NCBI GenBank assembly: GCA_015068455.1
Contig: SVKO01000002.1
Span: 186,001 to 250,000, forward strand
DNA length: 64,000 nucleotides
Origin: Oscillospiraceae bacterium
Lineage (GTDB): Bacteria; Bacillota; Clostridia; Oscillospirales; Oscillospiraceae
Reading direction: 5' to 3'
Shown here: positions 19,178 to 20,698 of the stretch, in pieces
Numbering within the stretch: the first letter of the stretch is position 1
How the letters are laid out: every line of letters begins with the position of its first letter
Notes under the pieces: generated by a model
Database searches by the model: none
What the model was told of the DNA's origin: nothing
What the model saw: the letters and a program-made list of their open reading frames with translations, nothing else
Program-made: the position numbers and the translations under genes

Positions 19178-19192
19178 TATGATGAATACGAT

Positions 19193-19226
19193 AAAAAACC
19201 GTCCGGCCTATGCCGGACGGTTTTTT
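19193..19226. terminator. Bidirectional terminator between the antiporter and spoVT
   Basis: AAAAAA, CCGTCCGGC, CTAT loop, GCCGGACGG, TTTTTT. The spoVT stop codon overlaps its right edge. Confidence 0.92.
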
Positions 19227-19767
19227 AATTCTCCATCTGTCTGCCCAGGAAGGAGGCTACGGTTTGCACCAGCTTCTGATCCGCCTCCTGGGGCGCTTTA
19301 TCCGATTCATCCATTAAAAGCATGACGCAGCCCATGAGATCGCCGCTGGAAATGATGGGCGCGGCCACGCCCAGGTGGTAGCGGTCCACATCCTCGGCGG
19401 CCTGCACCTTGGCGCTGCCGGGAGTATAGCGATAGCTCTTCCGCTCCTCCATGAGATGCGCCAGCTCCTGCGAATTGGATTTGGACAGCAGCTCCCGCTT
19501 CGGGATGCCGGACAGGGCGATGATGCTGTCCCGGTCCGATACCGCGGCGATGGCGCCGGTATTCTTGCCGATGGAGTCGCAGATCTGATCGGCGAAATCC
19601 TGCAGATCCCCCATGGGGGAGTACTTCTTGAAAATCACCTCGCCGTCGCGCTCGGTATAGATCTCCAGCGGATCGCCTTCGCGGATCCGCAGGGTGCGGC
19701 GGATCTCCTTGGGGATGACCACGCGGCCGAGGTCGTCGATCCTCCGGACAATGCCTGTTGCTTTCAT
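19225..19767 (-). CDS. spoVT: Stage V sporulation protein T (AbrB-type regulator)
   Basis: The protein has 180 residues. Residues 1-50 are the AbrB swapped-hairpin DNA-binding domain (MKATGIVRRIDDLGRVVIPK, then EIRRTLRIREGDPLEIY), and residues 60-178 form a GAF domain (GAIAAVSDRDSIIALSGIP; HLGVAAPIISSGDLMGCVML). This is the full SpoVT order and length. In Bacillus it modulates sigma-G genes in the forespore. The ribosome binding site AGGAGGA is seven to eight bases upstream of the ATG and is also one arm of a long hairpin. A sigma-G-like promoter lies just upstream. Confidence 0.95.
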   Translation of the reverse strand: MKATGIVRRIDDLGRVVIPKEIRRTLRIREGDPLEIYTERDGEVIFKKYSPMGDLQDFADQICDSIGKNTGAIAAVSDRDSIIALSGIPKRELLSKSNSQELAHLMEERKSYRYTPGSAKVQAAEDVDRYHLGVAAPIISSGDLMGCVMLLMDESDKAPQEADQKLVQTVASFLGRQMEN

Positions 19768-19769
19768 AT

Positions 19770-19826
19770 AAAAATCCTCCTGTATTTCTATCTGTTGTCA
19801 CGGATAGTATTTACGGGAGGATTTTT
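19770..19826 (-). terminator. Long-arm hairpin containing the spoVT ribosome binding site
   Basis: AAAAATCCTCC (19826-19816 on the minus strand) pairs perfectly with GGAGGATTTTT (19780-19770), and an inner stem CTATC/GATAG adds five pairs. The 3' arm carries the spoVT Shine-Dalgarno sequence and ends in a T-run. It can act as terminator for the upstream ABC operon or hide the ribosome binding site in read-through RNA. Confidence 0.65.
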
Positions 19827-19834
19827 GTTATTCA
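19805..19834 (-). promoter_or_regulatory. Candidate sigma-G/sigma-F promoter for spoVT
   Basis: TGAATA (19834-19829), 17-base spacer, AATACTA (19811-19805) on the minus strand. This is one mismatch from the CATnnTA -10 of forespore sigma factors. Known spoVT genes are sigma-G dependent. The start point near 19798 would exclude the 5' arm of the hairpin. Confidence 0.6.
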
Positions 19835-19864
19835 CTTTGATTGCGTGACGGCGCCGATGATCGG

Positions 19865-20698
19865 TTATCCCTTGATCGCACCGGCGATGAAGCTGTCCTG
19901 GATCTTCTTGCTGAGGAAGATATAGATGAACAGCGTCGGGAAGGTGGCAAGGACCAGGGCGGCGCCGATGGGACCCCAAGCCGTCGTGTACTGACCGGAC
20001 AGGGCCTGGACGCCCACGGGCAGCGTTTTCAGCTCGGTTTTGCTGATGAAAATGTTGGCGAACATCAGCTCGTTCCAGCACTGCAGGAAGGTGTAGATGC
20101 CGACGGTGGCCACGGCGGGCTTCATCAGCGGAACAATGATCCTGAAGAAGATGCCCCACACGCCGCAGCCGTCGATGCAGGCCGATTCGTCCAGCTCCCG
20201 CGGGAGCTCATTCATGAAGCCCGTACAGACCAGGATCGCCATGGACAGCGAGAAGGCCGCGTAGGGGATGATGAGGGCCCAGTAGGTGTTGAGCATATGC
20301 AGCCGCGAAAGCGTCACATAGATCGGCACGATGGAGGCGTGGATGGGGATGGTGAGACCCAACATGAAGAACTTGTTGAGGGTCTTGCGCTGCCGCCAGA
20401 TCAGCCGGGTCAGCGCGAAGGTGGCCATCAGAGCCACGGCCAGGGTGATGAGGATCGTGGCCACCGCCACGATGGTGCTGTTGAGGAAGTATTTTCCCAT
20501 CCGACCCGTGTTCAGAGCGCTGGTATAGTTCGACCAGAGCCACTGCTTGGGAAGACCCACGACGTTGTCGCCGAAAATCTCCGCGTTTGACTTCAGGGAG
20601 AAGGTGAACATCCAGTAGACAGGGAACAGGTTGATCAGCATCCAAAGGATCAAGCCGATATAGATGGCGACCCGTCTGCCTTTGCTAATATTTCTCAT
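19865..20698 (-). CDS. ABC sugar transporter permease (MalG type)
   Basis: The protein has 277 residues with six hydrophobic helices. The signature loop that contacts the ATPase is present (ELPRELDESACIDGCGVWGI, then FFRIIVPLMKPA: the EAA motif). The N-terminus (RRVAIYIGLILWMLINLFPVY) is typical of the CUT1 family MalG/LacG-like subunits. It imports oligosaccharides together with the permease encoded four bases upstream and the binding protein further upstream. No ATPase gene accompanies the locus, so a shared MsiK/UgpC-type ATPase elsewhere is implied. Confidence 0.92.
   Translation of the reverse strand: MRNISKGRRVAIYIGLILWMLINLFPVYWMFTFSLKSNAEIFGDNVVGLPKQWLWSNYTSALNTGRMGKYFLNSTIVAVATILITLAVALMATFALTRLIWRQRKTLNKFFMLGLTIPIHASIVPIYVTLSRLHMLNTYWALIIPYAAFSLSMAILVCTGFMNELPRELDESACIDGCGVWGIFFRIIVPLMKPAVATVGIYTFLQCWNELMFANIFISKTELKTLPVGVQALSGQYTTAWGPIGAALVLATFPTLFIYIFLSKKIQDSFIAGAIKG

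Follow-up and report, generated by a model that had tools for sequence, protein, structure and literature searches.

A hairpin between promoter and ribosome-binding site in the spoVT leader of an Oscillospiraceae bacterium as a probable start-site-dependent lock

In the window, the 64 kb stretch of Oscillospiraceae DNA analysed here, the leader of the forespore regulator gene spoVT probably acts as a lock on the ribosome site, one that depends on where the transcript begins and that is opened by the gene's own sigma-F/sigma-G promoter. We favour this reading, with some reserve, on the basis of the anatomy of the region, its conservation in one type of leader, its recurrence with unrelated sequences and a predicted switch in the accessibility of the Shine-Dalgarno sequence (SD). 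The spacer between the -35 and -10 boxes of the spoVT promoter would hold an anti-SD, and an RNA begun upstream would carry both halves of the dyad and fold into a hairpin hiding the spoVT ribosome site; together with its U run, this hairpin may additionally stop part of the upstream transcription. RNA from the sigma-F/G promoter would begin in the apical loop, contain the 3' half only and be translatable, with the outcome that SpoVT protein would be made solely from its own forespore promoter. What we infer here is where transcription starts, that read-through RNA exists, and that translation or transcription is blocked. Forespore genes need to be silent in growing cells, and a lock based on the choice of start site would achieve this silence without a protein regulator.

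The spoVT gene (19767-19225, minus strand, with its ATG start codon at 19767-19765) encodes an AbrB-type regulator of 180 aa that matches the TIGR02851 profile over residues 1-180 of 180 (217.5 bits, E 1e-64), a score below the curated cut-off of 235.9, which is likewise reached in 0 of 200 family genomes. The window's own genome, spore-forming and Oscillospiraceae-like, contains sigG, gpr and SASP genes. A sugar ABC operon precedes spoVT in the same direction, and its last gene, encoding a permease (19865-20698, minus strand), stops at 19865, 97 nt from spoVT; the minus-strand gap between the two reads GTGAATAACAAAAATCCTCCCGTAAATACTATCCGTGACAACAGATAGAAATACAGGAGGATTTTTATATG. At the other end of the gene, a perfect inverted repeat that includes A and T tracts (19192-19229, both strands) forms a predicted bidirectional terminator common to spoVT and a convergent gene for an NhaC-type antiporter.

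The gap holds a promoter, predicted from sequence, that fits the sigma-F/sigma-G pattern, with TGAATA as -35 box (19834-19829), a spacer of 17 nt (19828-19812) and AATACTA as -10 box (19811-19805), all on the minus strand. The pattern GNATA-17-[CAG]A[TCA]A[CA]TA has this single match over both strands of the window and 0 in shuffles, and a promoter of this type (score at least 13) is present in 94% of spoVT leaders compared with 3% of shuffled leaders. Promoter spacing places the predicted transcription start around the 7th base past the -10 box, at about 19798 (19798-19799, minus strand). At one locus of the collection (L044), two spoVT starts lie 0.9 kb apart (1612 and 2539), both preceded by a forespore-type promoter of their own, with leaders of different types.

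The 5' arm of the hairpin, AAAAATCCTCC (19826-19816, minus strand), lies within the promoter spacer, is conserved in related leaders and constitutes the anti-SD: it pairs perfectly over 11 bp with the 3' arm, GGAGGATTTTT (19780-19770, minus strand), which includes most of the SD AGGAGG (19781-19776, minus strand, 8 nt upstream of the ATG) and a U5 run. An inner stem of CTATC with GATAG, which begins with the CTA of the -10 box, extends the dyad across this box, so that the predicted start comes to lie in the apical loop; promoter makes up the 5' half of the dyad and spoVT leader the 3' half. The first-pass annotation had described a sigma-G-like promoter within a hairpin holding the SD, all elements of which are found at the positions given above on the minus strand, and its 11-bp stem with the SD in the 3' arm is borne out by sequence and folding; however, it understated the extent of the hairpin, since the inner stem was missed. 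On the sense strand the region reaches a folding energy of -36.0 kcal/mol (z -4.1), more stable than 200 of 200 shuffles, and the arm sequence has two copies in the 64 kb, both at spoVT, against 0.05 expected. About 20 other perfect inverted repeats of at least 11 bp, mostly terminator-like or tight palindromes, occur in the window (73 inverted-repeat seed hits versus a mean of 1.6 in shuffles), so that a long inverted repeat by itself is not rare here; the distinctive trait of the spoVT repeat is its overlap with promoter and SD.

In order to read off the probability that the SD is unpaired, spoVT transcripts were folded with successive 5' ends. For the window this probability is 0.17 for all 5' ends at -54 or farther upstream, where the transcript includes the 5' arm; with 5' ends from -50 to -30, which leave the arm out, it is 0.65-0.89. 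Folding therefore predicts, as had been proposed, that read-through RNA would hide the SD and that RNA from the gene's own promoter, which from the predicted start would lack the 5' arm, would leave it free. A similar switch at about the same position is seen in L055, a leader of the window hairpin type, and in L021, L157, L015 and L162 despite their differing sequences; it is weaker in the same-genus relative L003 (0.36 for long and about 0.6 for short transcripts) and in L065 and L054, and L107 shows no switch in this folding. Among 152 leaders, 18% fall within the lowest 4% of SD accessibility relative to swapped promoters and 24% relative to shuffled promoters. The mean accessibility of the SD in long RNA lies below that with shuffled promoters (p 2e-4), but over all 152 leaders it does not differ from that with swapped promoters (Wilcoxon p 0.39), which means that SD masking belongs to a subset and not to the whole spoVT family. 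The feature is clear in about one fifth of the 152 leaders and is thus recurrent, not general.

The conservation of the hairpin was followed in 186 spoVT leaders, the sources being 200 genomes of the family and 80 named genome contigs; eight of these leaders have the hairpin of the window. A covariance model built on these eight matched strongly in further genomes, in nearly every case immediately ahead of spoVT, and the alignment comprises 21 rows (20 spoVT leaders, the window included, and one orphan copy), some of them degenerate. The stem is kept in this set while the pairs adjoining the SD are exchanged (T-A 7, A-T 2, C-G 4), with C-G to T-A exchanges further into the stem and double changes in the inner stem as well. 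The eight rows have a covariation score of 0.133 versus 0.056 when shuffled, with 0 of 500 shuffles as high and slid partners reaching at most 0.067; pairs that fall in the SD core or the -10 box are not free to vary and are consequently uninformative. Another stem, TGCG/CGCA, appears to stand in for the inner stem in L207 and L213. Alignment of the leader in relatives hence finds the stem conserved, with compensatory changes, in 20 spoVT leaders, but this conservation is that of one leader type, whereas in the same-genus and in other relatives it is unrelated spacer sequences that pair with the SD. Such pairing occurs in L157, L015, L007, L021, L116 and L162 and more weakly in L003, and many of the strongly SD-masking leaders have no sequence relationship to the window type.

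Promoter-to-SD stems scoring at least 18 are found in 22% of spoVT leaders, in 3 of 15 gpr leaders and in 0 of 16 SASP leaders, and the SASP promoters rule out a universal feature of forespore promoters; for sigG, too few leaders had promoters above the score threshold for a count. In the sigG leader of one genome (G062, L297), ACCCCTTCGGA in the promoter spacer pairs with TCCGGAGGGGT, which lies at the SD, similar to what has been proposed for sigG of B. subtilis. A repeat family was likewise rejected, the inner core being single-copy in the window's own genome, and an orphan second copy exists in genome G085. This copy (L223, G085:C10:23912-23980) is a hairpin of the spoVT type with no spoVT behind it; it directly adjoins a CRISPR-like array with 36-nt repeats such as GTTTTACTACCGCTTGAAATTACACTACTCTCAAAC and lies 9.6 kb from a split spoVT start.

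Palindromes can become perfect through template switching, which we counted against the lock, and most spoVT leaders manage without a hairpin, so it could be asked whether the structure is a functionless product of chance or of mutational bias (quasi-palindrome correction). We consider this very improbable given the fold stability, the persistence of the hairpin across several genera with compensatory changes, the recurrence of SD pairing with other sequences and its absence from the SASP promoters.

In regards to what the lock would act against, the orientation of the upstream neighbour, called from ORF and codon composition, is co-directional in the window, L066, L148, L195, L206 and L213 and divergent in L054, L055, L065, L196, L200 and L202. 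Both groups retain the hairpin, and its persistence beside divergent genes argues against specific insulation from one operon; the target is either unspecific upstream RNA, or the hairpin is under another selection (operator, antisense). The proposal that the leader insulates spoVT from vegetative read-through therefore stands as far as the predicted masking of long RNA is concerned, but its specificity for the ABC operon does not, and the insulation reading is further limited by the many family spoVT leaders, the majority, that have no strong hairpin.

The hairpin could instead be mainly an intrinsic terminator for upstream transcription, here that of the ABC operon, with the overlap of promoter and SD reflecting compactness and SD masking being a by-product. 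A T4-T5 run stands immediately past GGAGG in 8 of 8 leaders of the window type compared with 6 of 89 others, and terminator scan and sequence gave no further terminator-like site on the minus strand between the permease stop and spoVT; similarly, a TrkH-like ORF in L195 stops shortly ahead of the promoter, and nothing else lies between the two. With this T run, a conserved U5, behind the hairpin, some termination may occur, as the lock itself would allow. However, the outer stem has only 11 pairs around a loop of 35 nt and was missed by the terminator scan, the hairpin is retained where the upstream gene diverges, a separate strong terminator already stands ahead of it in L148, and L107 and L157 keep the SD pairing with other sequences although the T run is absent. 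We consequently hold a primary role as terminator to be unlikely.

Two further readings place the function outside the sense transcript. The dyad might be a DNA operator, bound for instance by SpoVT or another AbrB-like dimer and serving autoregulation through its overlap with the promoter, as would suit a symmetry centre near the predicted start and a high sequence conservation that includes unpaired bases (loop GACA, AAA). An operator is improbable in our judgement, since unrelated sequences adopt the same SD-paired geometry elsewhere, which fits base pairing and not one operator, and since the inner core is single-copy in the genome and the arms extend into the SD and the U run. Alternatively, the functional fold could be antisense, a terminator or structure for RNA heading to the ABC operon. 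The antisense strand of the region is the more stable one (-45.7 kcal/mol, z -5.3; in a second folding, -29.8 versus -21.8 for the sense strand) because two A.C mispairs of the sense strand turn into G.U, and the mispair asymmetry over the 21-row alignment (A.C 35 versus G.U 13) does not favour the sense strand; both points count against the lock as well. Many of these A.C mispairs sit at stem ends, however, upstream neighbours and their strands differ among loci, and the convergent gene already has the terminator at 19192-19229, so that we give this antisense reading little credence.

The history of the lock candidate does not follow that of the protein. The hairpin type is scattered over the SpoVT protein tree with 7 changes, at least 5 of them forced by strongly supported branches, which rules out a single ancestry along this tree and calls for transfer, repeated gain or repeated loss. 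The window SpoVT groups with that of L003 (support 99), whose leader type differs; both have the NhaC-type antiporter gene downstream while the upstream gene is different, which puts a breakpoint close to the spoVT start and suggests that the stretch just before the ATG was exchanged in either the window genome or the L003 genome. It is conceivable, though we advance it only tentatively, that promoter and mirror-image leader make up an exchangeable cassette with the start in its loop, which at spoVT would have had several origins or exchanges and would represent a general masking of start sites in foreign RNA, a safeguard of forespore regulators (spoVT, sigG) and not an oddity of one operon.

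In many family genomes spoVT is split after codon 33-34 (L225-L231, L233-L240 and L253-L258, in genomes G085, G173, G005, G080, G054, G016, G053, G152, G079, G128, G378, G355 and G308; also L075 and L100). The first part keeps the start region, in several genomes with the window-type hairpin, and the remainder (about codons 27-180) forms an in-frame fusion with the end of a large serine recombinase, in an ORF of 719-818 aa with the Pfam domains Resolvase, Recombinase, Zn_ribbon_recom and SpoVT_C. Where both parts share a contig they lie on one strand, 12.2 kb (G152), 15.6 kb (G128) and 40 kb (G079) apart. This resembles intervening elements of the skin type, but sits in a forespore regulator gene, and it is puzzling that excision of spoVT in the forespore would be inherited, unlike that of skin in the mother cell. 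No report of a recombinase-split spoVT was found among titles and abstracts on spoVT, recombinase and excision, and spoVT is unmentioned in PMC5595907 on intervening elements. The sigG profile also matches in two separate pieces in G118 (G118:C12:256747-263931, profile 2-101 and 92-253, 6.4 kb apart), G004 (C13 and C29) and G131 (C69 and C53/C54), which suggests an intervening element in sigG as well. The split of spoVT by a serine-recombinase element may matter more than the hairpin.

Start-site-dependent masking of a ribosome site has precedents. The transposase leaders of Tn10/IS10 and the like mask the transposase start in RNA that reads in from outside, a case of a mobile element protecting itself, unlike spoVT. 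Long upstream transcripts of T4 gene e (lysozyme) hide the ribosome-binding site in a hairpin, as was shown experimentally with an effect of about 100-fold (PMC3014915). This masking hairpin of long upstream transcripts is common to both, but gene e is a phage lysis gene with T4 late promoters, whereas spoVT is a cellular forespore regulator gene with a sigma-F/G-type promoter known from sequence alone. For B. subtilis sigG (spoIIIG), PMC5942855 (with its references 9 and 52) describes a proposed block in which read-through RNA from spoIIGA-sigE would fold into a hairpin of 20+ bp that prevents translation and that cannot form in RNA from the sigG promoter. The leader of spoVT would share with it the logic of a read-through-specific hairpin before a forespore regulator, but B. 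subtilis sigG has a fixed operon neighbour while that of spoVT varies and may diverge, and the conserved U run sets the main spoVT hairpin type apart. At spoVT, folding likewise places the SD within the 3' arm of a stable long-transcript hairpin, and the transcript from the predicted start of its own promoter would be without the 5' arm, so that by its anatomy spoVT would join T4 gene e and sigG among start-site-dependent hairpins at ribosome-binding sites. The principle itself is not new: it is established for gene e of T4, has been put forward for B. subtilis sigG, and has a new example in spoVT, whose several sequence versions in gut Clostridia suggest that the arrangement put forward for sigG is wider than one gene.
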